Below are positions 8,086 to 32,811 of a stretch of 64,000 nucleotides of DNA, one piece after another. This DNA is from Pedobacter steynii. Its GTDB lineage: Bacteria > Bacteroidota > Bacteroidia > Sphingobacteriales > Sphingobacteriaceae. The notes beneath the pieces were generated by a model. That model was not told the origin of the DNA. It searched no databases and was given only the letters and a program-made list of their open reading frames with translations. Numbering within the stretch: position 1 is the first letter of the stretch; every line of letters starts with the position of its first letter. The DNA lies in the NCBI RefSeq assembly GCF_001721645.1, contig NZ_CP017141.1:3410001-3474000 (forward strand). Direction: 5' to 3'. The position numbers and the translations under genes are program-made.

Positions 8086-8114
8086 CATATCGATTAACAA
8101 CGAAAAAAAGCCTG

Positions 8115-10928: not shown

Positions 10929-10957
10929 TTTAATTGTATCAAATTTTTAGTGCCAGC

Positions 10958-11003
10958 AGCCCTGGTTATCTTACTGTACCTGGAAAGATGATCAGGGCTT
11001 TTT
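10958..11003 (+). terminator. Intrinsic terminator of the TonB receptor gene
   Basis: A 15-bp stem (AGCCCTGGTTATCTT with AAAGATGATCAGGGCT, two G-U pairs) with a 12-nt loop runs into TTTTT. It separates the receptor from the phosphoesterase genes. Confidence 0.85.
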
Positions 11004-12187: not shown

Positions 12188-12210
12188 AAATCCAGGTTAA
12201 ACATAGACAA

Positions 12211-14525: not shown

Positions 14526-14951
14526 ATCTTAATTATTTACGGTTTATATATGTATAGGTGTCTGGATGCCAATGCGTCAATATGTTTTGATATCATGATA
14601 TCTTTATGTAAAGATGTTTCAGTGCGAAATCGTATCTGTAAGTCCATTTTGATTGATGTTTCTGTTGTTTGTTCCTCATTTTTAAGGAGATACATTTGTT
14701 GGGGCCTGGTTGGTTCTACGTCAGACAATTTCCTGATATACTTCATGTTGAGGATGATGAACATTATATTGGTTTTTTATCAAAAATGCCTGTAAAGACC
14801 ACTGAAGTGATATCTGTTAAAGATGATCTAATAATTGTAAATAATTTATTTTTCTGAGTTTAGCTGTTTTAGTATCTATTTGTTTTATTATGATAATTTT
14901 AGCTAAATTATATGTCAATAATTATTAACCAACTCTTAAATGTTAAAAAAA
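14526..14951. other. AT-rich non-coding stretch with degenerate repeat copies
   Basis: No convincing gene is present. A 14-bp palindrome GATATCATGATATC at 14589-14602 and fragments such as GTCAATATG and ATCTTTATGTAAAGAT continue the repeat theme up to about 14615. Open frames here use poor codons and show no domain; nothing else was recognised up to the broken gene at 14952. Confidence 0.5.
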
Positions 14952-15560: not shown

Positions 15561-16157
15561 ATGTCAAAATCAATTACATCATTAGGGGATAAAATTTTAT
15601 TGGAAAAATATAGTCGGGGAAATACTTCCGCTTATAATGTTCTTTTTAAGCGTTATTATGACCCACTTTATGGCTATGCTTTAAAAAATGTTAAAGAAGC
15701 AGAGGTTGCTGAAGAACTCACCATGGATGTCATGCTTGGTCTATGGAAGACAAAAGGAGAGGTAGCGGTTGAAGATAATCTCAAGGCTTACCTCTATCGT
15801 TCTGTAAAGAATGCCATCTATAACCATCACCGTAAAAAGATCCTGAATACTGTGTCTCTGGAATTGGTTTCAGAAGATCTAAACCATACCTCAAGGTCTG
15901 CTGACCATGAACTGGATAGTAGAGAACTGGAGCAGGTTTATCGTCAGAAGCTAAACCAGTTAAGCCCTCAGCGCAAAAAGGTTTATGAAATGAGCAGAGA
16001 AGAAAATATGACCTATTCGGAGATTGCCAGAAATCTGGACTTATCGGTCAATACGGTAGAAAATTATATGGTCGCTTCTTTGAGCTTTTTTCGCAAGCAA
16101 TTGAAAGAACATGCTGACTTTACCCTGATTATACTAATTAGCTTGTTGTTGGGTTAA
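15561..16157 (+). CDS. ECF sigma-70 factor, FecI-like
   Basis: 198 residues. Sigma region 2 spans about residues 25-95 (YNVLFKRYYDPLYGYALKNV, then AEELTMDVMLGLWKTK), and region 4 about 130-185 with the helix-turn-helix NMTYSEIARNLDLSVNTVEN. A short hydrophobic tail (FTLIILISLLLG) is typical of Bacteroidota FecI-like sigma factors. It directs RNA polymerase to the promoters of surface-uptake operons when released by its anti-sigma factor. The FecR gene follows 109 bp downstream and the STN-domain TonB receptor after that, the classical trans-envelope signalling triad. It is the first gene of a same-strand run ending at 32754. Confidence 0.93.
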   Translation: MSKSITSLGDKILLEKYSRGNTSAYNVLFKRYYDPLYGYALKNVKEAEVAEELTMDVMLGLWKTKGEVAVEDNLKAYLYRSVKNAIYNHHRKKILNTVSLELVSEDLNHTSRSADHELDSRELEQVYRQKLNQLSPQRKKVYEMSREENMTYSEIARNLDLSVNTVENYMVASLSFFRKQLKEHADFTLIILISLLLG

Positions 16158-16266
16158 TCGCCCTTTTTTCAGTTTTCTCCTTTCCCATACAAATTATCGA
16201 TTTTTTTTACACCTCATAGGTGGTGTCCCTCAATAATGGTGTTTTACATCATGAAGGACAATAAGA

Positions 16267-17298
16267 ATGGAGCCAGAGCATAAAGATAAAACCCTGATTA
16301 GAAAATACCTCAATCACAATTGTACTCCTGAAGAGATGAAGGAGATAAAGAGATTGATGTTGGTTCCGGGTACACAACAAATTTTTGACGAGCTGCTGTC
16401 GGAAAACTGGACAGGGCTGGAAGCAGAAGAAAATACAGCTCAGCTACACCTGCAGAAAAAGCTGCAGCAGTTTTATAAAAAACTGGAGGCTGAAGAAATG
16501 CAGCATTTTCAGCAAAAGGAAGAAGATGAGAGAACAGTCCGTTCAATAAAACAACGTAACTATTTACGATACGCTGCTGTAATGGCTGTCATCTTTCTCG
16601 GCCTGGGTACTTATGGAATTCTCCAATATAAAAAAACTCCGGTAGAGGAGCAGATCGCCATGCGTGAGATTCTAAATCCTCGCGGGCAACGTTCGAGGAT
16701 TGTGTTGCCAGACAGCTCCGCTGTTTATCTTGGAGCCGGTAGCCGAATCACTTTCCCTGAACAGTTTGATGCAAATTCCCGGGAGATTGAACTCGAAGGT
16801 GAAGCCTTTTTTGAAGTCACACGAGATGCTAAGAAACCTTTCATTGTCCATACCGGAAAAGTACAAACTAGAGTACTCGGAACTTCCTTTAAAATTGATG
16901 CATTCAGAAGCCGTCCTTTAACCGTAGCAGTGGCGACTGGAAAAGTAAGGGTAGATGACTATACAGGACAGACTGGTAAGTCCCTGGCCGTTCTGAACCC
17001 TGGACAAAAAGTAACCTATAATCAGGGGCTGATAAAAACTGCAAATACGGAAATCGATGAGATCAGTGGCTGGAAAGATGCCCGTCTGGTCTTTCATAAT
17101 CAATCCCTTAAAGAGATCACTACAGAACTGGAACGCTGGTATAACGTGGAAATCAGCTTTGAGCATAAAGGAAAAGCAAAAGAAAAGATTTCAGTCGTAC
17201 TACAGGCTGATGTTCCACTGAATAAGATCATGAAAGTATTGGCAGCAACAGGCCATTTTAAATATAACATAACCTCTCGGAATGTCTCGATTAATTAA
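16267..17298 (+). CDS. FecR-family anti-sigma factor
   Basis: 343 residues. A cytoplasmic N-terminal helical domain (residues 1-95, LIRKYLNHNCTPEEMKEIKR) binds the sigma factor, and one membrane helix spans about residues 97-117 (YLRYAAVMAVIFLGLGTYGI). The periplasmic FecR domain follows (LNPRGQRSRIVLPDSSAVYL through VQTRVLGTSFKIDAF) and then a DUF4974-type C-terminal domain (FHNQSLKEITTELERWYNVE onward to the end). It senses occupancy of the cognate receptor through the receptor's STN domain and controls the sigma factor encoded just upstream. Family and topology are clear; the inducing ligand is unknown. Confidence 0.94.
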   Translation: MEPEHKDKTLIRKYLNHNCTPEEMKEIKRLMLVPGTQQIFDELLSENWTGLEAEENTAQLHLQKKLQQFYKKLEAEEMQHFQQKEEDERTVRSIKQRNYLRYAAVMAVIFLGLGTYGILQYKKTPVEEQIAMREILNPRGQRSRIVLPDSSAVYLGAGSRITFPEQFDANSREIELEGEAFFEVTRDAKKPFIVHTGKVQTRVLGTSFKIDAFRSRPLTVAVATGKVRVDDYTGQTGKSLAVLNPGQKVTYNQGLIKTANTEIDEISGWKDARLVFHNQSLKEITTELERWYNVEISFEHKGKAKEKISVVLQADVPLNKIMKVLAATGHFKYNITSRNVSIN

Positions 17299-17489
17299 CA
17301 GCACAAATCAGGAAAGGAAAGCTATGTAAGGTTGTCTACAAACAAACATTCCCCGCCTGGAAGGGCAGGGAACGAATTTAATGTCCATAAACCGTATGAT
17401 TTCGACGTCCTAACGGTTTAAAGCAACCCGTACCTGTAAACAGCTACGGAATTTTAACAGATCATCGCCTCGCAGCGAATAAACCAGTA
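17299..17489 (+). other. Leader between anti-sigma and TonB receptor genes
   Basis: 191 bp without a gene. Two weak inverted repeats are visible: TTCCC/GGGAA with a GCC/GGC extension (about 17349-17372), and AACCGT/ACGGTT around 17391-17419. No TAnnTTTG box was found, so either the operon reads through or a sigma-specific promoter lies here. Confidence 0.3.
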
Positions 17490-20400
17490 ATGTTCAAAAA
17501 TATGCAAAAAGGATTAAAACAATGTCCTTCAATTCGATTTATTATGAAATGCTCTTTTATCCTCATTGCGGCCCAGCTTACTTTTATAAGTGTCCTGATG
17601 GCCAGTAATGTAAAGAGTCAGGATCTTGATCATAAAATAAGCCTGCGGTTAGAAAATGTGACCATCGCACAGGGGTTGTCTGCAATTGGGAAGGTAGGAA
17701 ACATCCGTTTTTCCCTGAGAGAGCAATCTGTACAAAGGGAAAGGAAGAATGTGACGCTTGTTGCCGCACAGATCAGTGTTAGAGAAGCCATCAATAAGCT
17801 GCTGGCCAATACTGGTTTGCAATATAAACTGGTGGAAGGTTATGTGGTGATCGACAGTAAACCTGTTCCTATTGTCATTACAGGAACAGTGAGTGACGCA
17901 AAAACCAGGGAAACCCTCATCGGCGTTAGTGTAAAACTGAAAGGAACGAATACTGCCGCATCTACCGATGTGAACGGTAAATTCAAAATCTCAGTCCCCG
18001 AAGGCGGAGGTATTCTTATCGTTTCTTATATGGGCTACCAAAGCAGGGAAATTAAAGTGGATGCGGCGACAAAAGAGCTGAGCATCAATTTAAGTGCTTC
18101 TTCTACTCAACTCAGCGAGGTAACCGTTCAGGCAAGGCGAAAAACAAATACCGAAGTTGCTGTGCTGGACGAACGTAAAAAATCGGCCGTTGTACAGGAT
18201 GCGATTTCAGCGGTGCAGATAGAACGTACCGGAAGTATTACTACCACTCAGGCTTTACAAAGGGTTTCAGGAGTGACCATCACAGATGATAAGTATGTGG
18301 CGATCCGTGGTTTGGGAGATAGAAGTGTGATCGGGCAACTGAATGGTGTCCGTCTGGCTTCTTCTGATCCGGACCGTAGTTCTATTCCTTTGGACCTGGT
18401 TCCGGCCTCACTTTTAGACAACATCACGATTTATAAAACAGTAACCCCGGATAAACCTGCAGATGCTGCTGCCGGAATTGTAGAGCTAAAGACGAAATCC
18501 GTACCAGACAGTATGGTCTTTGATGTGATCATTCAATCTGGTTTCAATTCCAATATCGGAATCGGCGGACAACACAATAGTTTTTTCAATAGTGATATGG
18601 GTTTCTTAGGCGATAAGATCAACAAGAAAAACTTATCCTCTGATTTCTTAAATCTTGCCACACAATACAAAGGCGGACTTCCGCAAATCCAGAGCATGAT
18701 TGCCAACAGCGGATACAGTCCGGAGATGAAACAGGAAGTCAAAAGAATCAATGGAATTATGCAGGGTTTTGATCCGGTAATGACCACGCGTTACAAACAA
18801 AGTCCTCTAAATCAGTTGTACTCTGCTACTTTCGGAAACAGCTATACCTTGTTTAAAAAACATAAACTTGGTGTAATTGCAGGTGGGAATTATTACCGCC
18901 GTACCACAGATATTTCGGGTGGTGACATTCAGCAATATAGCATCTATCAGGGGGTTGTGACAGGTAATCCTCAAGTGAGCAGCCCAAGGAATATACCTAA
19001 TTACATTACCCCAAATAGCTTATATATGGGTAAATATCAGACCTATAAAGAGAATACAGGAACAGAAACCCTGAATTATGGAACTTTATTGGGTTTAACT
19101 TACCGTTTTAGTCCGCAGCATGAAATCAGCATGCAATACCTGGGAAGCTGGGGCGGTGAAACACAAGCGACCAATATGTTCGGGGGCTATGAATACACCG
19201 GGTTGCCTGGTGATGTCCGCAGTACGATCTACTCGCTTAAACAATCTTACCGTAAGCTCAATACGTTTAACCTTCAGGGAGAACATAAATTCCTGACCGG
19301 GGAATATTCACCAAGGTTAAGTTATAACGTGGCTTCTTCAAGAGCAGGTCAAAATGATCCGGATTATCGTTTCATCACCCTTGCAGACTACATGCCAAAA
19401 GGAGGCGCTTATTACAGCAGGCCAACAACAGGTCCTAACAATGGAGGTACTGAGCTGGTAAACACAGACCATCTATACGCCTTGTCATCCGGTTATGTAA
19501 ATGGATTTGGTGCCTATGGCATTATCCAGGCAGAACCCAACGGCAGGCGTTACAGAAATCTGGATGAGAAGAATTACAATTATAAAGCAGATATCAGTAT
19601 TCCTTTTAAACTTTTTGGAGAAAAACAGGAATTTAAAACCGGGGTCAATTACCTGAACCGCGACCGTGATTTTACAGAGAATGTGTTGTTTCTTCCGGGC
19701 TCTAACTTCTCTTCTTTAGGCGCATTGCCCTTGTACAGGGTCGAAGGAAATCTGGACCGCCTGGTGAGTCCGGAGATTATCGGGATCCGTCCGATGGCAC
19801 CGGGAACGGGAGAAGGAGCAGCTCCGGTAGGTGGATTTTTATACAATAGCCAGAAATCCCCGAACAATTATACCGGTTTCTTTGAAACCAAGGCTGCTTA
19901 TGCGATGGTCGACCTGAAAGTGACAAAAGACCTGAGGTTAACCGGAGGTCTCCGTTTTGAATCTACCAATATCCAGTCGGCAGTAGATACATCGGGGGTG
20001 TTCTTAGATCCTGCATTAACTGCTCCCGGTGCAGGAGGAACAAGGATTCCATTGTCTTTAACGAGTCCTAACTCAGTTTATAAAACAGGATACAAGCCTT
20101 ACTATTCCTTAAACGCGACTTACAACTTTAAAGATAAAATGAATTTCAGGGCGGGATACAATACGACATTGGCGAGACCTGAACTTAGAGAGATCACCAA
20201 CGTATTTGAGTTTGATGCCTTCCAGATGGGCTTGGTGGTCGGAAATCCAAACCTGATCAACCAATATACCCAAAACCTGGATTTCCGTTGGGAATATTTC
20301 CCGAACAACGGTGAGGTGGTTGCAGTTTCTCTATTCGGAAAACGCATTCAAAACCAATTATATAAAGTATTCAGTTTGCAAACAAGTGGACTGGCGGCAA

Positions 20401-20981
20401 CCTATCCGGAATATCCAACCATCAGGTTTGAAAACGACCCTAACATTGGTAAGGTATGGGGATTAGAGTTGGAAATTGTAAAAGATCTGGGTAGAATCTG
20501 GGACCCGCTACAGAATTTCTTTATCGGTACCAACCTGCTGCTTGCCCAAAGTCAGATTAAAAAATCACCGGAGCGTCTGGAAGCAAACCGTTCCCTGGAC
20601 AGACATACACCAAGCAATAGTCCGCTGTTTGAGCAGGCACCCTATTCCCTTAACGGATGGCTGAACTATAACAACAAACGTGCTGGAACGAGTCTTACCG
20701 GAACATTTAATATGGTAGGGGAGCGTCTGGTACAGATCAACCTGACTGGTGAGCCTGACCTGTATACCCGTCCGGTTCCGATCCTTGATTTCGTATTCAG
20801 TCAGCGGATTTTTAAGAACGTAATTTTTAAAGGTTACATGAAAAACCTGCTGAATCCATCTATCAAAACCGTATATGCCAATCCTGGAACTGGTGGTACC
20901 TGGTATGGAAACGAATACCTTAACCGTGGTTATAAGCGTGGCAGCGAATTTATGATGGGATTCACTTATAATTTGTTTTAA
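17490..20981 (+). CDS. TonB-dependent receptor with STN signalling domain
   Basis: 1163 residues. A long signal sequence ends near residue 44 (MASNVKSQ). An STN (secretin/TonB short N-terminal) domain follows at about 48-125 (ISLRLENVTIAQGLSAIGKV ... LLANTGLQYKLVEGYVVID), the part that contacts FecR. A CarboxypepD_reg-like domain lies at 130-210 (VVITGTVSDAKTRETLIGVS). The plug includes ALQRVSGVTITDDKYVAIRG and TVTPDKPADAAAGIVELKTK, and the beta-barrel ends in GFTYNLF. Receptor, anti-sigma and sigma form a sense-and-import unit. Its stop codon overlaps the start of the next lipoprotein gene by one base (TAATG), so they are coupled. No SusD follows, so a glycan substrate is not implied. Confidence 0.94.
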   Translation: MFKNMQKGLKQCPSIRFIMKCSFILIAAQLTFISVLMASNVKSQDLDHKISLRLENVTIAQGLSAIGKVGNIRFSLREQSVQRERKNVTLVAAQISVREAINKLLANTGLQYKLVEGYVVIDSKPVPIVITGTVSDAKTRETLIGVSVKLKGTNTAASTDVNGKFKISVPEGGGILIVSYMGYQSREIKVDAATKELSINLSASSTQLSEVTVQARRKTNTEVAVLDERKKSAVVQDAISAVQIERTGSITTTQALQRVSGVTITDDKYVAIRGLGDRSVIGQLNGVRLASSDPDRSSIPLDLVPASLLDNITIYKTVTPDKPADAAAGIVELKTKSVPDSMVFDVIIQSGFNSNIGIGGQHNSFFNSDMGFLGDKINKKNLSSDFLNLATQYKGGLPQIQSMIANSGYSPEMKQEVKRINGIMQGFDPVMTTRYKQSPLNQLYSATFGNSYTLFKKHKLGVIAGGNYYRRTTDISGGDIQQYSIYQGVVTGNPQVSSPRNIPNYITPNSLYMGKYQTYKENTGTETLNYGTLLGLTYRFSPQHEISMQYLGSWGGETQATNMFGGYEYTGLPGDVRSTIYSLKQSYRKLNTFNLQGEHKFLTGEYSPRLSYNVASSRAGQNDPDYRFITLADYMPKGGAYYSRPTTGPNNGGTELVNTDHLYALSSGYVNGFGAYGIIQAEPNGRRYRNLDEKNYNYKADISIPFKLFGEKQEFKTGVNYLNRDRDFTENVLFLPGSNFSSLGALPLYRVEGNLDRLVSPEIIGIRPMAPGTGEGAAPVGGFLYNSQKSPNNYTGFFETKAAYAMVDLKVTKDLRLTGGLRFESTNIQSAVDTSGVFLDPALTAPGAGGTRIPLSLTSPNSVYKTGYKPYYSLNATYNFKDKMNFRAGYNTTLARPELREITNVFEFDAFQMGLVVGNPNLINQYTQNLDFRWEYFPNNGEVVAVSLFGKRIQNQLYKVFSLQTSGLAATYPEYPTIRFENDPNIGKVWGLELEIVKDLGRIWDPLQNFFIGTNLLLAQSQIKKSPERLEANRSLDRHTPSNSPLFEQAPYSLNGWLNYNNKRAGTSLTGTFNMVGERLVQINLTGEPDLYTRPVPILDFVFSQRIFKNVIFKGYMKNLLNPSIKTVYANPGTGGTWYGNEYLNRGYKRGSEFMMGFTYNLF

Positions 20982-22657
20982 TGATGAAAGAACTAAAAAA
21001 ATATCTGCTGTTTTTCCTGATGCTGGCCATTATTGGCTGTAAAAAGGATAAAACAGATTTCCAATCTGACAATCGTAAAGTAACGGATGCCCGTAAAAAT
21101 TCCTCTGTAAGACTGGTAAACCTTGCAGGTTATAATCAGCTGCAGCTAAATGGGGATACCCTGACGAATTATGTGGTCAGAGCCCCAAACGATCCCATGA
21201 CAGGACAATATCCGGGGACACTGTATTTTCCTGATAATGGCAGATTAGGAACAACCTGGTTTATCCCGCAAAATCTTCTGGATAAGGGGGCTGCAAAGGT
21301 ATTGGTAGAAACTAAAGTTTATAATCCTATAGAAAATCCACTGGAACTGGAAGTCAGGGAAGAATTTCAGCAAGGGACGGATTATTACCTTTTGCCCACC
21401 CCGGCATCTGGTGTAACCGGGCAGCCTTCGTTTATCAAAATACCAAGATCGGTAGCTTCCCCGGCAAACCCTGCCAATTTTAAGGTCAGGATCTTAAACC
21501 TCTCTGCTAAGGTTCTTCCTGATCAGGAAATGGAAGACCTGCTGGGCCCAATGAGCCTGACCTGGGCAGATGGAACAGCCGTAAGCGATAAAACCAGTAA
21601 TATCCTTCCCGGACAATACTCAGAATATATTGAACTTCCTTACGGTACTGCCCAATTGAAGGTGCTGACGCAAAATGGCATTCAGGTTCCCGGCGGTGGA
21701 CCAGATGTATTGGAGGCAAGCACCTCGACTATATTTGGTACCACACTGACTTATGCTCCGGTAAAAACCTATGCACCTGGTGGAATTTATACGATTGTAG
21801 TGGCAGCAAGGGAATTTGATATTCCCTACAGAAGTGGTAATCCCGGAGAAACAGTAAAAGGCTACCAGAATTCGTTCCGTATCATAAATGACATTTCCGA
21901 GCCTTTAAATCTGACTTATGGAAGGGTTCAGGCGGTAAATGCAGTTCCTGGTACTTCGGGAATGAAGGTGCTGATCAATGGGAAAGTGCTGGATGCCCCT
22001 ATTAATTATACGGCGCATACCGCTTATCAAAGTCTGGTTGTTGGTGGTTATACTGTCGAAGCAGTAGATGTTTCAGGTGCCGTTCTGGCAACCAAAAACT
22101 TTCAGCTGGATGCGAACACAAATTTCTCTTTCTGGGTTCATCCCGATGCAAATGGCAAGACCACGATCAGCGCAGTTGCCAATGATTTGAGCGGGACATT
22201 TGTTAGGGAAGCTGGAGATGATGCCTCTTCTTCACGATTTACACAGGAATTTCCTTTCAGTATCCGCTTCCTGAACCTTTGCCCGGATGTTCCTTACCTC
22301 ACGCTGACTACAGATAATGCGCAGGCATTTTCCAGCGTGTACGGATTTAATACCGTTGCAGTCAACAACCTGAGGCCAGGTATTGCACCTACGAATTCAC
22401 CTTACATCAGACCTTATCAGGACGCCAGAGCGTACCAGATTATGGCTTTCCGTTCCTCGCCATCAGTGGTTCCGGGAACCTGGGCAAGTGATATTCCGGT
22501 GTTGACGGGCAGGAGCCTGATTGCCAGACCTGAACTGTATGTGAGGGGAGAATTGCCGAATCATGAGGCTGGTTTTTATACGATTGCTTTGGTAGGCAGG
22601 ACCAAAGCTACAGCCAGCGAGAAAGCTAAAATGATCATTGTGAAACACAGTAAATAG
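20981..22657 (+). CDS. Surface lipoprotein with DUF4397-like repeats
   Basis: 558 residues. The SPII signal ends at the lipobox LAIIGC (Cys20), followed by the charged KKDKTD stretch. Three segments start with a similar strand pattern, VRLVNLAGYNQLQLNGDTL, FKVRILNLSAKVLPD and FSIRFLNLCPDVPYLTLTTD, each resembling DUF4397 Ig-like modules. A further module (YGRVQAVNAVPGTSGMKVLI) fits the same scheme, giving about four beta-domains. No catalytic motif is visible. It is translationally coupled to the TonB receptor, in the place where SusD-like partners normally sit, so it may be the receptor's extracellular ligand-binding partner (inference). Confidence 0.75.
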   Translation: MMKELKKYLLFFLMLAIIGCKKDKTDFQSDNRKVTDARKNSSVRLVNLAGYNQLQLNGDTLTNYVVRAPNDPMTGQYPGTLYFPDNGRLGTTWFIPQNLLDKGAAKVLVETKVYNPIENPLELEVREEFQQGTDYYLLPTPASGVTGQPSFIKIPRSVASPANPANFKVRILNLSAKVLPDQEMEDLLGPMSLTWADGTAVSDKTSNILPGQYSEYIELPYGTAQLKVLTQNGIQVPGGGPDVLEASTSTIFGTTLTYAPVKTYAPGGIYTIVVAAREFDIPYRSGNPGETVKGYQNSFRIINDISEPLNLTYGRVQAVNAVPGTSGMKVLINGKVLDAPINYTAHTAYQSLVVGGYTVEAVDVSGAVLATKNFQLDANTNFSFWVHPDANGKTTISAVANDLSGTFVREAGDDASSSRFTQEFPFSIRFLNLCPDVPYLTLTTDNAQAFSSVYGFNTVAVNNLRPGIAPTNSPYIRPYQDARAYQIMAFRSSPSVVPGTWASDIPVLTGRSLIARPELYVRGELPNHEAGFYTIALVGRTKATASEKAKMIIVKHSK

Positions 22658-22664
22658 AAGCGTT

Positions 22665-23861
22665 ATGCCACAATTAAGATTACAAAATATATTGTTCTGT
22701 GCTGCGGTTCTGCTGCTTTTTGCCAGCGGATGCAGTAAAGTCGATTATGCGAAAATAGATGACCCCGCTTATTTAAGGGTTTTCAATAACCTGAATTATG
22801 TTGTCGGACTGGAGAATAAAGATGAAGAAGTCCCTTTCCTGACGATGTTGATTGATCCGGAAATGGATAAAGATGGAATACCGGTTAAGGCAGGCATTAA
22901 GGGCGATTTTCTCGATCAACGAGAACCTTATGCACCTCCGTATCCTTCCCATGTGGGCAGCAGTACTTCTTACAAAAATCCGGAGTATCCGGGAAAGGAA
23001 AATGTCCTTGTAGGTCCTGTGCTGAACGGTTTTGACCTGAGCAGCTGGGCACAGATCCCTTCCGGAAAACACCGGATTGTATTTATGTTCCGCCCGGTAA
23101 ATAACGTGCCTTTCTTCAATCTGGAATCCCGCTTGAAGCAGAAAGTGCTGATTGATACCACCATTATGCTGGACTCAAAAGAGGTGTATACGCTCCATAT
23201 CCTGCAGAAAAATTTCCTGACCAAGAAGAACGGAATCTACCTGAGAAAAGAAAATTTTCATAAGCTCCCTCTGTCGGATTCACTGGTTTACGTGAATTTC
23301 TATAACATGAGTGCGAAAGGGTTTCGGGAGTCTAATGACGACCTGAAAGAAGCGAATAGAAAATCAGGTTCATTGAGATATGGGATCAAGGACAACATGA
23401 ACATTTTTCAATCGCTGTTCACCAGTGAGAAAACAATGTTGAGTCCGGTTTATTCCAGTACTTATAAATTCATGGGACAGCTGACAAGGAATTCTGAAGT
23501 CCTGGAAGTGAGTAAATACTATAGCTTTCCACTGTTCGCAGATCCTAACTCAGATGGGATATACACCAATATCTGGCAACGTTTTGACCTGATGGCGGTC
23601 GGTATGAATCCTGCAAATAATCCTTATGAACCATTTCTCATGAATACCGAAGGGAATTGGGCTCCGATCAACTGTATGCTGGATGGCAAATCGACACTGT
23701 TGGGAAATGACAATGCAGCGCAGTTGCCAAACATGATTGTAAACATCCATTCCGGAAAATATAATCCCCGCTCTTTTGCAACGGTAAATACGATAGAAAT
23801 TGTAAACGGTGACGTTTACCTGACTACGATTCAGCGAAAATATGCCCCACCTATGTATTAA
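22665..23861 (+). CDS. Lipoprotein of unknown function, DUF4397-like N-terminus
   Basis: 398 residues with an SPII signal ending at FASGC (Cys23). The mature start AYLRVFNNLNYVVGLENKDE and a later SLVYVNFYNMSAKGF resemble the first strands of DUF4397-like modules in the preceding lipoprotein. The rest is beta-rich with many aromatic residues and no recognised motif. The gene starts 7 bp after the previous stop, so it belongs to the same transcript. A structural or binding role at the surface is an inference. Confidence 0.65.
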   Translation: MPQLRLQNILFCAAVLLLFASGCSKVDYAKIDDPAYLRVFNNLNYVVGLENKDEEVPFLTMLIDPEMDKDGIPVKAGIKGDFLDQREPYAPPYPSHVGSSTSYKNPEYPGKENVLVGPVLNGFDLSSWAQIPSGKHRIVFMFRPVNNVPFFNLESRLKQKVLIDTTIMLDSKEVYTLHILQKNFLTKKNGIYLRKENFHKLPLSDSLVYVNFYNMSAKGFRESNDDLKEANRKSGSLRYGIKDNMNIFQSLFTSEKTMLSPVYSSTYKFMGQLTRNSEVLEVSKYYSFPLFADPNSDGIYTNIWQRFDLMAVGMNPANNPYEPFLMNTEGNWAPINCMLDGKSTLLGNDNAAQLPNMIVNIHSGKYNPRSFATVNTIEIVNGDVYLTTIQRKYAPPMY

Positions 23862-23885
23862 CAATGCAGATCAGATTCTAAAAAT

Positions 23886-24977: not shown

Positions 24978-24997
24978 TAAAATTAAAGACAAAACAG

Positions 24998-26233
24998 ATG
25001 AAACCAATTCATATCCTTACTTTTTGCCTGCTGTTTCTTACACTGGCATCCTGTAGAAAAAAAGAGTTTATGCCCGAAGTAGAGGGGCTACCGGTTCCGC
25101 ATCCGGAAATTACGGCCAGCCTGAAAGATGTCCTGAATACTTCTCCTTATACCATTTTCAAGGCCGCCTGGGAGCGGAGTAATATGGATAAGATCATGAA
25201 AGAAAAGGGAGATAAGGCGTATTATACGATGCTTGTGCCTACAAATGAGGCCTTTATTGCTGATGGACTAACCATGGAGAAAATCAATAGTACTGAGCCA
25301 GCTTTATTGGACAGCATTTTGCTTTACCATACGCTAACCGGAACTTTTAATCCTGAAGATGTAAAAGACAGAGTAGACAATTATCCGGGGAAATCCCTGT
25401 TGGAAAACCCCTATCTAAAGGTAAAAGCCCCCTTTTCGGGCTCAGCTTTAGCTGCTCCTTATTTTTACCTCCAATACCTGAAAGTAAGTGGTAATGAGCT
25501 TTTTGTAAATGGTAAAAAAGCCGGCTCTGCCGCTGCTGTTCTGGCAAAAAATGGCGTGCTTTTGCCGGTCAGCCGTGTTTTGCACAAACCAACAAAGACG
25601 ATTTTACAGGTGCTCCAGGAGGATGGCCGCTTCGGAATGTACCTCGACCTGACTGCCCGTACAGACGCTTTATTTGCAGAACTGACTTACGGGAGTTTTC
25701 AACATGATTTTACAGCTGGTTTGAAGGTAAGCGAGATTGGAGATTATAACATTACTTTTCATTCCATTTTTGCCATCACTGATGATGCTTTCCGTAAGGC
25801 TGGCTACAATACGGTAGATGAAATGATGGAATTGAATAACCGGAATCCATTGCCTTATGTCGATTGGGATACCTATGCCGTAAAGGGCGGATTGGTAACC
25901 GATACTTTAGTTGGATATCACAGATGGGGAACCTTCTTTTCTCATGATGAACCAAACGTAGGCCGGGGTACTGCCAATGCCACTAATTTTTACTCCAATG
26001 ATTTAAATAATACGGTCTTGGGGGATTATACGCTGGTTCTTGGAGGCTATCCAACACCCTTTCCTGCCTACAAAATGCCATTGGATTTCAATAACGAAGG
26101 TGGGGTCATTAAAGTAAAAGTAAAAGGATCAGATTACCCGGCAGCGAGTGTGATCGAGTCGGATATCAATACGATTATGGGGCCGGTTCATATCGTCGAC
26201 CGATTGCTGCTGCCAAAGGGCTTCAAATTGTAA
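24998..26233 (+). CDS. Double-fasciclin (FAS1) lipoprotein 2
   Basis: 411 residues. The start is the ATG of MKPIHILTFCLLFLTLASC, with lipobox Cys19 followed by RKKEFMPEVE; a longer TTG-initiated frame would overlap the preceding gene. The first FAS1 domain is about residues 38-200 (DKAYYTMLVPTNEAFIADGL and NGVLLPVSRVLHK). The second is about 205-408 and divergent, with an insertion (DYNITFHSIFAITDDAFRKA, then VHIVDRLLLPKGF). The second domain lacks the compact spacing of its neighbours and may have a different partner. It sits between two other FAS1 lipoprotein genes. Confidence 0.85.
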   Translation: MKPIHILTFCLLFLTLASCRKKEFMPEVEGLPVPHPEITASLKDVLNTSPYTIFKAAWERSNMDKIMKEKGDKAYYTMLVPTNEAFIADGLTMEKINSTEPALLDSILLYHTLTGTFNPEDVKDRVDNYPGKSLLENPYLKVKAPFSGSALAAPYFYLQYLKVSGNELFVNGKKAGSAAAVLAKNGVLLPVSRVLHKPTKTILQVLQEDGRFGMYLDLTARTDALFAELTYGSFQHDFTAGLKVSEIGDYNITFHSIFAITDDAFRKAGYNTVDEMMELNNRNPLPYVDWDTYAVKGGLVTDTLVGYHRWGTFFSHDEPNVGRGTANATNFYSNDLNNTVLGDYTLVLGGYPTPFPAYKMPLDFNNEGGVIKVKVKGSDYPAASVIESDINTIMGPVHIVDRLLLPKGFKL

Positions 26234-26259
26234 TTCCCGCATATCACGAATGATTTAAC

Positions 26260-27261
26260 ATGAACGCAATGAATAACTTTAAATATATCCTGATGCCTGT
26301 ACTCGCATTAAGTGTGAGTCTTTCTGCTTGCAAAAAAGAGGAAAAACAGTCGTCCGGAAAAGACAGCAACAAAATCAGCGCTGTAATTGCAGATAATTTT
26401 AACTTATCTGTATTCAGTACAGGACTTAATCGTAGCGGATTAAAAGCAAAGATGCAGGAAACAGGACCCTTTACGGTAATCGCTCCTTCGGATGATGCTT
26501 TTCTCAAGGCGGGCTTCGCAAATGCTGTGGCGATTCTTAGTGCAGAGCCTTCCCGGATTTCTGCAATTATGAACTATCATCTGTTAAACGGAACCTACGA
26601 ATTGAATAAACTGCCCTTTCTGTTTAATCAGGAAATCCGTTCTGCAAACGGAGGAAAGCTATTTGTCACCCATTGGGTAAAAGGCCCGGATACAGTGCTT
26701 ACTATTAACGGTTCCAGGGTCTTATCACAAAATATCCGTGCTACTAATGGATTGATTCAGGTGGTAGACCAGATGTTGGAACCCTATACACACGAACTGG
26801 TGACCGAGGCCATTGCTTCAGACAGGAGCCTGAGTTTGTTTTATCAGGCCATTCAACGGTCAGGTTTGATGACGGTACTCAATGGTAAAGGTTCTTTTAC
26901 AGTATTCGCGCCTGAAAATGCAGCCATGGCTGCTTATGGGTTGTCCAGTCTGGCTGATATCAATGCCGCAGATCCTGCAACACTTGCTGCGTTAATGCGC
27001 TACCACATCATCACAGACCGTCGCTTTGTCTATGATTATATCCTGAGCACTAGTGCAAGTGGAAAAAGCGATCAGACGATGCTGGATGGGAATTCCATTC
27101 AGATTCAGCTCATTCCAAATGAGAATGTTCCGGGTGCTTTTACAGGAATTAGATTACAAGGAACGGGAAATACCGCATTTATTGCTGTAAAGAAACAGGA
27201 TGTACTTACCGGAAACGGCGTGCTGCATACCATTACTGGTATGTTGAAGATCACCCAGTAA
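26260..27261 (+). CDS. Double-fasciclin (FAS1) lipoprotein 3
   Basis: 333 residues, lipobox VSLSAC (Cys24) followed by KKEEKQSSGKD. The two FAS1 domains are compact and canonical: residues about 38-180 (ETGPFTVIAPSDDAFLKAGF and ATNGLIQVVDQMLEP) and 183-331 (GKGSFTVFAPENAAMAAYGL and TGNGVLHTITGMLKI). Of the three FAS1 lipoproteins in the operon this one is closest to the family consensus. A 26-bp gap precedes it and a 21-bp gap separates it from the Oar-like receptor, so one transcript is likely. Confidence 0.9.
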   Translation: MNAMNNFKYILMPVLALSVSLSACKKEEKQSSGKDSNKISAVIADNFNLSVFSTGLNRSGLKAKMQETGPFTVIAPSDDAFLKAGFANAVAILSAEPSRISAIMNYHLLNGTYELNKLPFLFNQEIRSANGGKLFVTHWVKGPDTVLTINGSRVLSQNIRATNGLIQVVDQMLEPYTHELVTEAIASDRSLSLFYQAIQRSGLMTVLNGKGSFTVFAPENAAMAAYGLSSLADINAADPATLAALMRYHIITDRRFVYDYILSTSASGKSDQTMLDGNSIQIQLIPNENVPGAFTGIRLQGTGNTAFIAVKKQDVLTGNGVLHTITGMLKITQ

Positions 27262-27282
27262 TTAAAAATTAAGATTTCAGAG

Positions 27283-30200
27283 ATGATTTTAAATAAGATA
27301 CTCAAAAAAATAAGTGTATTCCTGATACTGATGCTACCCCTTGTGGCAACAGCTCAGGAAACCAGTGGTACCCTGAATGGAACGGTTTATGATGCCGGCG
27401 GACAAGTTTTGCCTGGCGCTTCGGTGATTGCTATTCATCAACCATCCGGTACTAAATATGCCACTTCTGCCGATGCCAAGGGGCGATATTATTTACCTAA
27501 TCTTCGTATCGGCGGACCTTATTCCGTAGAAGCAGCGATGATCAGCATGAAAACGGACAAGAAAGAAGGCATTACCATTCGCCTGGGTGCCGCAATATTA
27601 TTAAACTTTGCACTAACCGATCAGACGCAGCAACTGGGAGAAGTGGTGATTAAAGCTACCAAAAGAGGGCCTCAGGCCAGTACTTATGGAACAGGTAAAA
27701 ATATCAGTGCCGATCAGGTGCGCAATATGCCGACGGTTTCCAGAAGCATTACCGACATTACCCGTCAGGTGCCACAGGCAAGTAAGGACAATAGTTTTGG
27801 CGGAACAAATTTCCGTTACAATAACGTCACGATCGATGGAGCTATCAATAACGATGCAATTGGCTTTAGTCCATCTTTAGGCGGACAGTCGGGAACTTCA
27901 GGTATGGCCGGAAGCTCTACCCGTACCAATCCGGTATCCCTCGATGCCATCGAAGACATGCAGGTCTATCTTGCTCCTTATGATGTGAAGATTGGAAACT
28001 TTACCGGCGGATCCGTAAATGCGGTGACCAGAAGCGGAACCAATACCCTCAGCGGATCTGCCTATGGTTTTGGCCGGAATGCCAGCTTAACCGGTAAGGA
28101 TAGGGTAGGAACATTGGGTAAAATGAACAGTGATTTTTACGATTATCAGGCAGGTTTCCGTTTAGGTTTTCCCATCATTAAAAACAAGCTTTTCTTTTTT
28201 ACCAATGAGGAATTTACCCGCAGGAGAGATCCTTTGCAACTGTTGGCCGGAAGAGCGGAAACGAGTCATATCCTAAGTGGGGAGGACGCAAAGGCGATCA
28301 GTGCCGCTAATTTCCTGGATGCAGGTACCGCAGGTGAATTTAATACCTATTCGAAATCTCGTAAGTTCTTCAACCGCCTGGATTGGAACATCAACGATAA
28401 ACATCAATTGGCCATCAGGAACAATACCATCGTTTCTGAAGCCACGCATATGGACCGTGATCAACAGGATTTCCGGTTCAGCAGCATGGCCTTTCTACAG
28501 AAAAATAACCAAAGTTCTACCGTGGCTGAATTAAAAAGCAGGTTCAGTAATAACTTGTCAGGAAATTTACTGGCAGGTTATACGATGGTAAACGATTTCA
28601 GAGATCCATCGGCTGATCCAAGCCTGCCACAGGTGCAAATCGCCGGACGTACCCCAGGTACGACGATCTATTTAGGAACAGATCGTGAGGCCAGCATCTT
28701 TGATATGAAACAAAGAACACTGGAGCTGACCGCCAACCTGAACTGGAACCTTGGGAAACATACCTTCACCCTGGGTACCCATAACGAGTTTTATAACATC
28801 ACCTATGGTTTTGTGAATGCATGGAATGGAAGGGTAGATTATTTAAGTATTGAGGATTACCTGAACAACAATCCATACCGCGTTCGTGGGGCTTATGACT
28901 ACCAGAACAACAATAGAAATGACATCCTGGATCATCCGGGTGCAAAATTTAATGTCAACCTGTATAGTCTTTATTTCCAGGATGAGATCCGTGTTTCTGA
29001 TAAGTTAAAAGTCATCCCCGGACTTAGGGCTGATATGGCGCACTTGCCGGAAATGCCGCAGCTGAGCGATAAAACGCGTACGGCTATGGATGATCCATTT
29101 TTCGGAAGTACCTATACATATACACCACTAAAAAGAATTACCAATAATTTCCTGAACAAAGTACAGCTCTCACCAAGAGTAGGATTCAGGTACGATTGGA
29201 TGGGTGATCAGAGTCTGATCCTCAGAGGGGGAGCAGGTTTGTTCACCGGAAGGATTCCAATGGCATGGCTGGCTTATGCTTTTTACAATACCGGAGATAG
29301 TTATGGTGGTTTTGATCAGAAAGCAGATCAGAAACCTTTTGTCCCAGGTAGTAATCCATTAAAAGGAGGTCCAAATGGAATCGCAGATTTCATTCAGGAG
29401 AATGGTGCGGCGACCAATAACCGCAATAGCGGAAAAACTCAGATTGACCTGGTGGACAATGGGTTTGTAATGCCGCAAGTGTTAAGAACAAGTCTGGGGA
29501 TTGATTATACTACGCCTACGCAATGGAAATTTGGCTTGGAGGCGATCTATACTAAAAACATTAAGGATGTGCTTTTTCAACAACTCAATGTGCAGGACAA
29601 TCCTACTTATTATGGATATGATAAATCACGTCTACAACCGGTTTATAGCGGGACAGTAGATCAGCGCTTTTCTAATACTTACTTGTTAAGTAACACCAGT
29701 AAAGGATACCGTTACAGCCTTACCGGAAGTATCAGTAAAAATATTGCTGAGGTATTGCAGGCTTCGGTTGCTTATACCTACGGACAGTCTAAAGATTTGT
29801 CGAACGGTGTACGTAACTCTATGGAATCGAACTGGCAGTTGAACCAGTCGCTGGTACCTAATAATCCGGTATTGGCCAATAGTAATTTTGACATCAGACA
29901 CCGTATTGTCAGCACCATCAGTTACAATAAAATATGGAACAAGGGTAAAACAAATGTTTCCTTGTTCTTCAGTGCACAATCGGGAAGTCCGTTTACTTAT
30001 GGTATTGTAAATAATAGCATTCAGGGTTTGCCACAACAGGTGAGTCTGGCATACATCCCGAATAGAGAAGAAAGTATCCGCTATTTTCAGGACCGCAATA
30101 CAGGCGGACAACTGGTTACTGCTCAGCAACAAGCCGAAGCATTTAATGCTTATGTGGATGGAGATGAATACCTGAGCAGCAGAAGAGGGCAGTTTACCGA

Positions 30201-30534
30201 AAGAAATAAAGGGCGTACGCCATGGAACCTGCAGGCCGATTTACACCTTTCCCATGATTTGTTTGTTTCAGGAGATAAGAAACAATTCATCACCCTGACT
30301 GCAGATGTGATGAATCTGACCAATCTGATCAGTAAAAGTTGGGGCATTCAATATTTCTCACCCAATACCTTTAACTCTACTTCCAGTGTGGGATTAACTC
30401 CGGTATTGTTTCCGCCACAACAAAATGCAGGTGGATATCCTTCTTTCCAGTTTAATGCGCCGGGTAAACCTTATAGCGTGGATTATTATGGTTCAAGAAG
30501 TCAGGTGCAATTTGGTTTAAGATATACTTTTTAA
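27283..30534 (+). CDS. Oar-like TonB-dependent receptor
   Basis: 1083 residues with signal peptide ISVFLILMLPLVATAQ. An N-terminal carboxypeptidase-regulatory-like domain spans about residues 29-115 (GTLNGTVYDAGGQVLPGASV). The plug is of the Oar type (RNMPTVSRSITDITRQVPQA and FRYNNVTIDGAINNDAIGFS, then GGSVNAVTRSGTNTLSGSAY). The large beta-barrel ends in VQFGLRYTF. Oar-type receptors in Bacteroidota and myxobacteria are linked to protein or peptide uptake/secretion and adhesion rather than sugars (family knowledge). It has no STN domain, so regulation must come through the other receptor in the operon. Two TonB receptors of different classes in one operon is unusual. Confidence 0.92.
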   Translation: MILNKILKKISVFLILMLPLVATAQETSGTLNGTVYDAGGQVLPGASVIAIHQPSGTKYATSADAKGRYYLPNLRIGGPYSVEAAMISMKTDKKEGITIRLGAAILLNFALTDQTQQLGEVVIKATKRGPQASTYGTGKNISADQVRNMPTVSRSITDITRQVPQASKDNSFGGTNFRYNNVTIDGAINNDAIGFSPSLGGQSGTSGMAGSSTRTNPVSLDAIEDMQVYLAPYDVKIGNFTGGSVNAVTRSGTNTLSGSAYGFGRNASLTGKDRVGTLGKMNSDFYDYQAGFRLGFPIIKNKLFFFTNEEFTRRRDPLQLLAGRAETSHILSGEDAKAISAANFLDAGTAGEFNTYSKSRKFFNRLDWNINDKHQLAIRNNTIVSEATHMDRDQQDFRFSSMAFLQKNNQSSTVAELKSRFSNNLSGNLLAGYTMVNDFRDPSADPSLPQVQIAGRTPGTTIYLGTDREASIFDMKQRTLELTANLNWNLGKHTFTLGTHNEFYNITYGFVNAWNGRVDYLSIEDYLNNNPYRVRGAYDYQNNNRNDILDHPGAKFNVNLYSLYFQDEIRVSDKLKVIPGLRADMAHLPEMPQLSDKTRTAMDDPFFGSTYTYTPLKRITNNFLNKVQLSPRVGFRYDWMGDQSLILRGGAGLFTGRIPMAWLAYAFYNTGDSYGGFDQKADQKPFVPGSNPLKGGPNGIADFIQENGAATNNRNSGKTQIDLVDNGFVMPQVLRTSLGIDYTTPTQWKFGLEAIYTKNIKDVLFQQLNVQDNPTYYGYDKSRLQPVYSGTVDQRFSNTYLLSNTSKGYRYSLTGSISKNIAEVLQASVAYTYGQSKDLSNGVRNSMESNWQLNQSLVPNNPVLANSNFDIRHRIVSTISYNKIWNKGKTNVSLFFSAQSGSPFTYGIVNNSIQGLPQQVSLAYIPNREESIRYFQDRNTGGQLVTAQQQAEAFNAYVDGDEYLSSRRGQFTERNKGRTPWNLQADLHLSHDLFVSGDKKQFITLTADVMNLTNLISKSWGIQYFSPNTFNSTSSVGLTPVLFPPQQNAGGYPSFQFNAPGKPYSVDYYGSRSQVQFGLRYTF

Positions 30535-30537
30535 GCA

Positions 30538-32754
30538 ATGAAGATGAATCTACATGTAAAGAATATGATGAAAAATGGATTGTTCGGTTTCGGCCTGGTC
30601 TTGCTGATGCTGGCTGCCTGTAAAAAGGACAAAACGGAAATGATTAAAGAGCCGTTAAAGCTGACGGACTATTATCCCAACAGTGGAAATCAAGGAACAC
30701 TGGTGACCGTAGAGGGAACCGGTTTCAGTAATAATCCTTCGGATATTTCCGCTACATTCTCAGGTACACCTGCGGATGTGGTGAGCGCAACGGCTACGGC
30801 TGTGGTGCTGAGAGCACCGCAAAAAGGAAGTACGGGAGAGATCGTGATGAAAGTATCGGGAGAGACGCTGAATATTGGCCGTTATACTTATCAGGAATTA
30901 AGTGTGCAGCGGATTAGTCCCTCAAATGGTGCTGCCGGTGCACACATCCGGATTTCAGGTGCTGGTTTTAGCAGCTTAAAAGGTCCTGCTGAAGTGTTTA
31001 TCAACGGGAAAGCGAGTGTTGTGGTGAGTGCCTCAGATACGCTTTTAGTGGTGGAGGTTCCTGAAGCAGTAGGTACCGGACCGGTGAAAGTGAAAGTAGA
31101 TGGGAAGGAATCCATGGGGCAGACTTTTAAATACCAGGCGATTGCAGGCATTAGCCCATTAACCGGGGGGAAAGGTACCCAGGTGAGGATTACCGGAGAG
31201 GGATTTGAAGAACTTGCGGAGGGTAATTATGTAGACTTTAATGGTAAACCTGCATTGGTGAAAGAAGCTAGTGGAACATCGCTCTTGGTAGTTGCTCCCG
31301 CGGAAGTAGGTACGGGGCCATTGTCGATAACGATCAATAAACAAAAAGTTACCGGACCCGTCTTCACTGTCGTTCCTCCACCAGTGATCGAGACCGTTTC
31401 TCCCCTGAGCGGTCCCGGAGGTTCGGTGATGACCATTGTCGGAAATACTTTCAGTACAATTCTGGAAGAGAATAAAGTAAGCATTAACGGAAAAGTTATT
31501 CCGGTAACTACTGCTTCAGCAACAAAGCTGACTTTAACACTTCCCGGAAATACCGGAAACGGAAAAGTAGTGTTAAGTGTAAATGATCAGGTGGTGCAGG
31601 GACCGGAATTTAAAGATCAGTCGCTGGGAATTAATAAGCTGAGTCCTGAAAACGGCCTTGCCGGAACTCAGGTGACCATTACGGGAACAGGATTTAATGC
31701 CAATGCGGCTCAGAATACCGTGACTTTTAATGGATTGCCGGCAGCAATACTCAGTGCTACGGAAAGCACCATTGTGGTAAAGGCGCCTATCGGTTTAAGC
31801 ACAGGCATTGTAAAAGTAATAAATAATGGCGCTGAAGCCATCTCGCCGGTTGTCTTTAGCAGAGCAGGAGTGCTGACCATAGCGGGAGGTCCTGGAAACA
31901 CGGATCTGGATATTTCTGCTTTCCGGACTGGTAGTTTGGCAATAGACAGGCAGGGCAATATTTTTGTACTGGAAGTCGAGCGCAGCAGGATAAAGAAAAT
32001 TAGCCCTGAGGGTGTGGTGACCTTGTTTGCGGGAAGCCCTACGGGACAACGTGGCAATAAGAACGGAAAGGGTGCCGAAGCTTTATTTAATTTTGCTGCA
32101 GATCCCGGGATGGACATTGACGCTAACGGCAACCTTTACATCAGCGATGGTGGTAACCTGAGCATTAGAAAAGTTAGTCCGCAGGGCGAGGTTAGCAATT
32201 TTGCAATAGGTTTTGGAAACATCAATAAACTGGCATTTGATGGTCGTGGTATATTGTATGTTCTCGGATCTTTTAACGGAGCATGGAGAATTAATCCTGA
32301 AGGATTGAGAAGCACAATTAACATCACTTCCATGTCTGATGTATGTCGTCCTGTAGTTGTCGACAATATTATCTATAAGTTGAACAATGAGAATTTTTAT
32401 ATTGATACTTATAATTTAACGACTAACCAGAACATGACTTCCGTTATTGGTGGAAATTATGGACATACGGACGGAATTGGCAGGGCTGCAGCTTTTGCCA
32501 GCATCAATGGCATGGCTGCTGATAACGATGGAAACATCATCATTGCGGATGCAGGCAATACCGCTATCCGAAAGCTGAACCCGAAAACGAAAGAAGTAAC
32601 TACACTTGCCAAATTTACAAGAGGAGGGGCGGTAGATGGTAGCTTAAATGAGGCTAAAGCGGGTAGTATCGGTGATGTGATCGTAGATAAAGCTGGAAAT
32701 ATCTATTTTATAGACAGTAGTAATAATGCGGTGAGAAAAATTTTTCTTAAATAA
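30538..32754 (+). CDS. Lipoprotein with five IPT/TIG domains and an NHL-type beta-propeller
   Basis: 738 residues, lipobox LMLAAC (Cys28), then KKDKTEMIKEP. Five IPT/TIG Ig-like domains occur at about residues 38-118, 120-200, 202-282, 283-362 and 364-446. Each begins with a pattern like ISPSNGAAGAHIRISGAGF or LSPENGLAGTQVTITGTGF. The C-terminal 290 residues are NHL-type propeller blades (GSLAIDRQGNIFVLEVERSR, MDIDANGNLYISDGGNLSIR, MAADNDGNIIIADAGNTAIR, VIVDKAGNIYFIDSSNNAVR). IPT-NHL lipoproteins occur at many SusCD-like loci as surface glycan- or protein-binding subunits. It begins 3 bp after the Oar-like receptor stop and is the last gene before the terminator. Confidence 0.9.
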   Translation: MKMNLHVKNMMKNGLFGFGLVLLMLAACKKDKTEMIKEPLKLTDYYPNSGNQGTLVTVEGTGFSNNPSDISATFSGTPADVVSATATAVVLRAPQKGSTGEIVMKVSGETLNIGRYTYQELSVQRISPSNGAAGAHIRISGAGFSSLKGPAEVFINGKASVVVSASDTLLVVEVPEAVGTGPVKVKVDGKESMGQTFKYQAIAGISPLTGGKGTQVRITGEGFEELAEGNYVDFNGKPALVKEASGTSLLVVAPAEVGTGPLSITINKQKVTGPVFTVVPPPVIETVSPLSGPGGSVMTIVGNTFSTILEENKVSINGKVIPVTTASATKLTLTLPGNTGNGKVVLSVNDQVVQGPEFKDQSLGINKLSPENGLAGTQVTITGTGFNANAAQNTVTFNGLPAAILSATESTIVVKAPIGLSTGIVKVINNGAEAISPVVFSRAGVLTIAGGPGNTDLDISAFRTGSLAIDRQGNIFVLEVERSRIKKISPEGVVTLFAGSPTGQRGNKNGKGAEALFNFAADPGMDIDANGNLYISDGGNLSIRKVSPQGEVSNFAIGFGNINKLAFDGRGILYVLGSFNGAWRINPEGLRSTINITSMSDVCRPVVVDNIIYKLNNENFYIDTYNLTTNQNMTSVIGGNYGHTDGIGRAAAFASINGMAADNDGNIIIADAGNTAIRKLNPKTKEVTTLAKFTRGGAVDGSLNEAKAGSIGDVIVDKAGNIYFIDSSNNAVRKIFLK

Positions 32755-32777: not shown

Positions 32778-32811
32778 ACCGGGCCTGGCGAAAGCCAGCC
32801 CGGTTTTTTTT
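32778..32811 (+). terminator. Strong terminator of the fasciclin/TonB operon
   Basis: ACCGGGCCTGGC and GCCAGCCCGGT form an 11-bp GC-rich stem with one bulged C and a GAAA tetraloop, followed by eight Ts. It ends the 17-kb gene run that begins with the sigma factor. Confidence 0.93.

Follow-up and report, generated by a model that had tools for sequence, protein, structure and literature searches.

We examined a 64,000-nucleotide stretch of the Pedobacter steynii genome (hereafter the window; NCBI RefSeq assembly GCF_001721645.1, contig NZ_CP017141.1, forward-strand positions 3,410,001 to 3,474,000; genome of 6.58 Mb in one contig), in which ten genes form a putative operon that combines two TonB-dependent receptors of different classes with three lipoproteins bearing FAS1 (fasciclin) domains. 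Domain and open reading frame (ORF) checks agreed with a first-pass annotation of this DNA, which had placed ten such genes on one strand between 15561 and 32754; they lie on the plus strand at the coordinates below (all given as window positions).

15561 to 16157, + strand: extracytoplasmic function (ECF) sigma factor of the Bacteroidota type (TIGR02985; 139 bits against a cut-off of 126)
16267 to 17298, + strand: FecR anti-sigma factor or sigma regulator (FecR and FecR_C domains)
17490 to 20981, + strand: STN-TonB-dependent receptor of 1163 amino acids, a signal-transducing transporter (STN, plug, and barrel by domain matches)
20981 to 22657, + strand: DUF4397 lipoprotein of 558 amino acids (Pfam), its C-terminal half predicted to resemble the extracellular domain of PepT1/PepT2
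22665 to 23861, + strand: gene 5 (G5), a lipoprotein of 398 amino acids without a Pfam family, with a predicted DUF4397-like, PepT-ectodomain-like tandem fold
23886 to 24977, + strand: F1, FAS1 lipoprotein with two FAS1 domains
24974 to 26233, + strand: F2, FAS1 lipoprotein with two FAS1 domains (start TTG at 24974 or ATG at 24998)
26260 to 27261, + strand: F3, FAS1 lipoprotein with two FAS1 domains
27283 to 30534, + strand: Oar-like TonB-dependent receptor of 1083 amino acids, from an operon-specific clade (OMP_b-brl_4 / CarboxypepD_reg type; PF25183, PF13620)
30538 to 32754, + strand: lipoprotein of 738 amino acids with five IPT/TIG domains and an NHL propeller (domain matches)
32778 to 32811, + strand: intrinsic terminator of the operon (stem at 32778-32804 followed by eight T)

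The first-pass annotation had described most gaps as shorter than 30 bp; this holds for the structural genes from the STN receptor onward, which overlap by at most 4 bp or lie at most 26 bp apart, but not for the sigma-FecR (109 bp) and FecR-receptor (191 bp) gaps. The strong terminator reported after the IPT/NHL gene was recovered (z -3.0, with 0 of 200 shuffles equally stable). Each of F1, F2, and F3 contains two Fasciclin stretches above the curated Pfam cut-off, and "Oar-like", a label carried over from the annotation, here refers to domain make-up (PF25183, PF13620) alone. Domain searches detected a SusD domain, a glycoside hydrolase, or a lyase in none of the ten operon proteins. Against the SusC/RagA model TIGR04056, the STN receptor scored 73.8 bits, far below the cut-off of 368, and the Oar-like receptor gave no match; the best model for the STN receptor barrel was TIGR01782, at 205 bits and under its cut-off. 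The flanking genes (ParA-type upstream and AHSA1-type downstream, both on the other strand) are unrelated.

The conservation of this gene set was evaluated with gene 5 as the query. The best 80 of its 119 relatives in named genomes, together with the window and a second copy in the same genome (the sister copy), made up the 82 loci tallied here, and all locus counts are conditional on gene 5. Named loci came from Pedobacter, Mucilaginibacter, Sphingobacterium, Parapedobacter, Desertivirga, Chitinophaga, and other Chitinophagaceae (at least two families). The order receptor-DUF4397-gene 5-F1-F2-F3 was kept at all 82 loci as far as the contig extends: gene 5 was accompanied by DUF4397 and F1 at 82 of 82, by the receptor at 81, and by F2 and F3 at 81 loci, with L104 and L071 being cut by contig ends. 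Median gaps inside this core ranged from 2 to 12 bp; FecR adjoined the receptor at 73 of the 82 loci, and a sigma gene lay immediately upstream of FecR at 67. In a tree of 114 FAS1 proteins (38 of the 82 loci), F1, F2, and F3 formed three separate clades of 38 rows each with support of 99-100, which points to an ancient FAS1 triplet in a fixed order. The flanks yielded 256 ORFs in 194 clusters, none of which was common to more than three genera. An order shared across at least two families, combined with unshared flanks, indicates that the cassette has sharp borders and no conserved enzyme neighbor. With regard to the synteny search proposed by the first-pass annotation, the FAS1-FAS1-FAS1 core recurs in fixed order in the 80 named loci, with an Oar-like gene beside the core at 70 of the 79 assessable loci. 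Gene 5 was present in 10 of 59 relatives, all within the genus, in 67 of 399 genomes of the family (6 of 25 genera), and in only 2 of 395 genomes sampled from the phylum, including the P. steynii genome itself, so the cassette is not a general Bacteroidota system. It had no match among plasmids, and its closest named relatives were from Pedobacter caeni, P. sp. KBW06, and P. steynii (95-92%).

The Oar-like receptor of the operon belongs to a clade that travels with gene 5. Taking matches of at least 1410 bits against the window protein (a cut picked after the gap between 1417 and 1324 bits had been seen) plus a shorter match in genome G412 at 68% identity, we found 69 operon-type Oar receptors in 63 of the 399 family genomes, and all 63 genomes carry gene 5. 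In 67 of the 69 cases a gene 5 precedes the receptor on the same strand, at a distance of 3.4-5.8 kb; in the remaining two the receptor is on a contig other than that of gene 5. Four genomes with gene 5 (G077, G106, G287, and G383) lack an operon-type Oar. Another Oar clade, which scores about 1240-1320 bits, occurs widely and has no tie to gene 5, and the next-best Oar-like relative in the P. steynii genome reached just 434 bits. It is extremely improbable that these genes are adjacent without joint function, given that their order is held in at least two families while the flanks vary and that gene 5 is present in 63 of 63 genomes with an operon-type Oar; nothing was found in favor of such an accident, and the conserved order, the unshared flanks, and this co-occurrence also rule out a chance cluster, so far as genome comparison allows. 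Two receptors of different classes with one ECF/FecR regulator and three two-FAS1 lipoproteins, as the annotation had proposed, are a real conserved unit according to the loci comparison, the FAS1 tree, and the Oar survey.

FAS1 matches in the P. steynii genome form two clusters, the second of which, at about 2.109-2.131 Mb, contains the sister copy. Here the order is FecR, STN receptor, DUF4397, gene 5, F1, F2, F3, TIG/NHL, SusC, SusD, Mx1 (a Peptidase_Mx1 / TIGR04549 zinc metallohydrolase), and two DUF4302 genes, with the ECF sigma gene on the other strand after the DUF4302 pair and no Oar in the copy. A DUF6266 protein borders two cassettes (L009, 2822-3643; L067, downstream of IPT), and in the sister copy it occupies the usual place of the sigma gene. 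Because the sister copy carries SusC and SusD, the absence of SusD marks the window variant and not the whole family; the "no SusD" of the first-pass annotation was correct for the window copy but not as a defining feature.

A second TonB transporter stood beside the core in all 79 assessable loci (the contigs of L071, L075, and L088 end early). The partner was an Oar-like receptor in 70 of the 79, including L054, scored as Oar type despite a SusC-like fragment downstream of its IPT gene, and it was placed before the TIG/NHL gene except at L083, L090, L091, and L092, where it comes after. Eight loci had SusCD-Mx1 as the partner (L009, L096, L097, L098, L089, L099, L101, and L110), with the Mx1-SusD adjacency in L096, L097, L099, and L101 taken from coordinate matching and L089 scored as this type as the second unit of the L098 tandem on the same contig; DUF4302 was present in SusCD-type loci wherever the sequence was read (L009/L010, L098, and L110). 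At the one other locus, L094, the partner was a siderophore-receptor-like TonB protein together with a DUF4374 protein, whose end lies 6 bp upstream of the core. In bacterium A37T11 (L098 and L089), two tandem core units without FecR share one SusD-Mx1-DUF4302 set upstream. Starred branches on the gene-5 tree (58 of the 82 rows, after removal of near-copies and cut rows) gave the SusCD type at least two separate placements. It is possible, although we would not call it probable, that the core (the STN receptor, two DUF4397-type and three FAS1 lipoproteins, and usually the TIG/NHL protein) acts as a general surface hub that gathers and senses cargo for an exchangeable transporter, i.e., Oar, SusCD with a metallohydrolase, or an XusAB-like pair. 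If true, this would be a modular outer-membrane architecture with capture uncoupled from transport and at least two independent partner exchanges in its evolution. With one copy of the Oar type and one of the SusCD-Mx1 type, this genome offers a direct comparison of what the core does and what the partner contributes.

By analogy, the two partners found in place of Oar (SusCD-Mx1 and the XusB-type pair) suggest a role in iron uptake by piracy: the lipoproteins would bind an iron-loaded protein or siderophore, or strip it of its iron, for import of that iron through both receptors. Seven loci and the tandem unit L089 have SusC-SusD-Mx1 by the core, with DUF4302 wherever the sequence was read. 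This make-up is that described for icsC-icsG of the transferrin iron capture system, in which icsE encodes a zinc metallohydrolase and whose expression in Riemerella goes up about 8-14 fold when iron is scarce (PMC5429918). The core of L094 directly follows a DUF4374 protein and a TonB protein resembling siderophore receptors, and DUF4374 is the XusB family (PMC13142918). FecIR-type control and the best solved match of the receptor plug, 9gbc (XusA; E 9e-8), likewise point to iron. However, the box AATNAATCTWAATAA, which occurs upstream of iron-linked TonB operons in the P. steynii genome (L162, L163, L167, and L168) and which, as a guess, might be the Fur site of the genus, is absent here, with scores of 7.9 upstream of sigma, 5.7 upstream of the receptor, at most 9.2 in the sister copy, and at most 11.2 over 69 sigma upstream regions. 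The box was found at four of the six iron-linked operons of the genome with scores of at least 20.8, which are high by construction as the matrix was built from those four promoters, and only the low operon scores are informative. There is also no PepSY gene inside or beside the operon, and in Bacteroides thetaiotaomicron a SusCD locus that includes DUF4302 (BT3958-BT3961) is expressed less when iron is low (PMC10434189), so the SusCD-DUF4302 module is not always for iron. On balance, iron piracy by the operon seems rather unlikely to us.

The two lipoproteins between the STN receptor and the FAS1 genes were modeled confidently by AlphaFold, with a mean predicted local distance difference test (pLDDT) score of 88.3 for gene 5 and 91.7 for the DUF4397 protein (alignments of 57 and 53 relatives, respectively). 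Searched by sequence, the PDB gave nothing beyond chance-level rows for gene 5 and the DUF4397 protein, and nothing for the Oar-like receptor. The gene 5 model matched the extracellular domains of PepT2/PepT1 with Z of 12.0 to 10.5 (root-mean-square deviation, rmsd, 3.0-3.5; 176-186 residues aligned; 12-15% identity), and its matches past the PepT group were weak (Z of at most 7.0) and are given no functional weight. The C-terminal half of the DUF4397 protein matched the PepT1/PepT2 extracellular domain with Z of 14.4 (rmsd 3.3, 184 aligned). Since both lipoproteins match PepT ectodomains, gene 5 appears to be a DUF4397-like lipoprotein by fold; the predicted fold common to gene 5, the DUF4397 protein, and the PepT ectodomains is no proof of function. 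Streptolysin-type structures matched by both models were put down to the common sandwich. Charged residues follow the lipid-anchor cysteine in window lipoproteins (e.g., C-KKDKTDF and C-KKEEKQS). Such residues behind the lipobox cysteine are a surface export signal in Bacteroidota, and the window lipoproteins are probably surface-exposed.

At the regulatory end of the operon, the ECF sigma and FecR genes adjoin an STN-bearing TonB receptor, which is the FecIR-type transducing make-up. Trans-envelope signaling is established for FecA/FecR/FecI. Across loci, the STN domain was filled in 73 of 73 receptors with FecR adjacent and low in four full-length receptors without FecR (L089, L094, L098, and L110), as well as in three split or cut receptors (L047, L093, and L108); at L070 the contig begins at the receptor, hence no FecR, and STN was not flagged. 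This tracking of STN with FecR would fit trans-envelope signaling in the operon studied here.

The FecR-receptor gap (window 17299-17489, - strand) is a conserved leader in 75 loci, for which an antisense RNA is predicted.

17347 to 17493, - strand: predicted antisense RNA, about 150 nt long and facing the receptor leader, with its terminator at 17347-17374 and a start estimated from the TAnnTTTG box at the receptor start codon

Among 73 of the 75 regions (two shorter than 80 nt left out), an intrinsic terminator was found on the minus strand in 42 and on the plus strand in none, against an expectation of 0.15 from shuffles that preserve single-base content only. The box TAnnTTTG, which we take to be the Bacteroidota -7 consensus, stood at the receptor start on the minus strand in 56 of 73 and on the plus strand in none (expected 1.7), with the caveat that it overlaps the start-codon context, where an A-rich make-up could favor it. 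In folding, the predicted antisense strand was more stable than its shuffled versions (z -3.2), and double changes occurred at 7 of 8 terminator pairs across 28 aligned regions, which were chosen for mutual likeness and do not give an unbiased count. A motif, GWCKTCGAAAW, lies 5' of the antisense terminator and was found with this spacing in the operon and at two dissimilar sites of the genome. Rfam gave no family in the operon region; outside it, a sub-threshold snoRNA match at 14588-14683 was taken as chance. The gap is thus predicted, and only predicted, to encode a cis-antisense RNA like those of the DonS type described at Bacteroides polysaccharide loci. In many Pedobacter loci, a Shine-Dalgarno-like GAAAGGA followed by ATGTAA (start-stop) stands 150-180 nt before the receptor (about 17311-17329, + strand, in the window), and this start-stop could be a minimal upstream ORF; the count of ATG-stop pairs, 33 of 81, includes some spurious matches.

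ECF/FecR/STN control with an antisense RNA at the receptor leader is typical of polysaccharide utilization loci, which makes the operon comparable to a glycan utilization locus that has lost SusD and whose enzymes are encoded elsewhere. The 205-bit match of the receptor barrel to TIGR01782, a family whose known members include sugar receptors, adds to this comparison. Set against it are the lack of a glycoside hydrolase, lyase, or SusD in the ten genes, flanking genes that are not conserved between genera, and a receptor score of 74 bits against the SusC cut-off of 368, and we regard a glycan locus as unlikely.

We consider it probable that the operon is a self-contained, ligand-induced outer-membrane capture-and-import cassette, with control like that of polysaccharide utilization loci but without SusD or linked enzymes. 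Its gene content, order, and conservation, the STN-FecR coupling, the exclusive co-occurrence of Oar and core, and the partner exchange are computed. Mechanistically, the six lipoproteins on the outer face would bind a large ligand, part of which would be imported by the STN receptor; a signal passing via STN and FecR to the ECF sigma factor would then switch the operon on, with the antisense RNA opposite the receptor leader holding the basal level down, and the second, exchangeable transporter (Oar here) may move cargo beyond the reach of the first receptor. The direction of transport is presumably inward, and both receptors presumably form a joint complex with the lipoproteins.

Several points weigh against such a cassette. 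IPT is absent from seven Oar loci and L086 has no adjacent sigma gene, and so neither is universal; the search pattern for lipoboxes failed or hit a wrong position in some rows (e.g., F1 63 of 82, with the window F1 read by eye); and the STN receptor barrel best fits TIGR01782, although below its cut-off. FAS1 domains are adhesive in other organisms, and the operon might instead build or decorate a surface matrix, with the FAS1 proteins as matrix adhesins and Oar as an exporter. Oar of Myxococcus xanthus is required for protein secretion (of PopC) and not for import (PMC6434023), and the Oar-like receptor here may therefore act in either direction. Oar is, however, replaceable by SusCD-Mx1 or by a receptor with DUF4374, both import classes, and no conserved passenger protein lies beside the operon, which leaves the exporter quite improbable.

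For the capture-and-import cassette, a peptide, protein, or glycoprotein is the likeliest class of ligand, a choice that we make tentatively and with less than even confidence. The hints to this effect are all indirect and consist of the lack of linked enzymes in operon and flanks, Mx1 in the sister loci, and the predicted PepT-ectodomain-like fold. The first-pass annotation had read the locus as a surface complex for a protein or matrix ligand rather than a glycan; the conserved two-receptor FAS1 unit speaks for the complex, but the preference over a glycan is not established, as these hints are indirect and the TIGR01782 barrel fit points the other way.

Elsewhere in the window, a SelO-type protein adenylyltransferase (4546-6132, - strand) is encoded, and two calcineurin-like phosphoesterases downstream of a TonB receptor (8022-13182) make up what looks like a phosphate-ester scavenging set. 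An ammonium transporter is followed by an OmpL-like porin at 37151-39629, and a 6653-amino-acid ORF (43261-63222) with DUF11-type repeats and a C-terminal CHU_C type IX secretion signal encodes a giant secreted adhesin-like protein.

The first-pass annotation knew of no described system of this composition, and a full-text search of open-licence PubMed Central (PMC) papers likewise found no published account of such a FAS1/TonB/DUF4397 combination. With SusCD / RagAB-type loci (polysaccharide utilization loci and relatives), the window operon has in common the sigma-FecR-TonB receptor order, STN where FecR is adjacent, and surface lipoproteins in one operon; it differs in having no SusD, a receptor under the SusC cut-off, no enzymes (carbohydrate-active enzymes were found neither in the operon nor in its conserved surroundings), and, in addition, three FAS1 and two DUF4397-type lipoproteins and a second receptor of another class. 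The iron capture system (icsA, C-H) of Capnocytophaga / Riemerella resembles the sister copy in SusC, SusD, the icsE-type zinc metallohydrolase, and two DUF4302 genes, a likeness of make-up, whereas the window operon lacks the SusC-SusD-metallohydrolase-icsF-icsG set and an iron-type box and has FAS1, DUF4397, and Oar-like proteins instead. The XusABC xenosiderophore system is alike in pairing a TonB receptor with a surface lipoprotein, and L094 has a receptor and a DUF4374 protein ahead of its core, but the window operon has no DUF4374 or PepSY gene, both of which occur elsewhere in the genome. Oar of M. xanthus, of a class with an N-terminal carboxypeptidase-regulatory domain, is also a large TonB receptor (likened by class); the window receptor, unlike it, is encoded within a ten-gene operon alongside FAS1 lipoproteins. 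The DonS-type antisense RNAs of Bacteroides polysaccharide loci share the place between anti-sigma and receptor genes, whereas the RNA predicted here comes with the cassette-specific motif GWCKTCGAAAW and a terminator, a pattern that, of the two cassette copies in the genome, only the window one fits. Overall, the parts are of known kinds, and the composition, the obligate second transporter, and the partner exchange appear new to us. They offer a concrete function to seek, in soil Bacteroidota, for proteins of the FAS1, DUF4397, and Oar-like kinds. Bacteroidota TonB systems are mostly read through the SusCD model; this conserved family always has a second transporter, one whose class can change.

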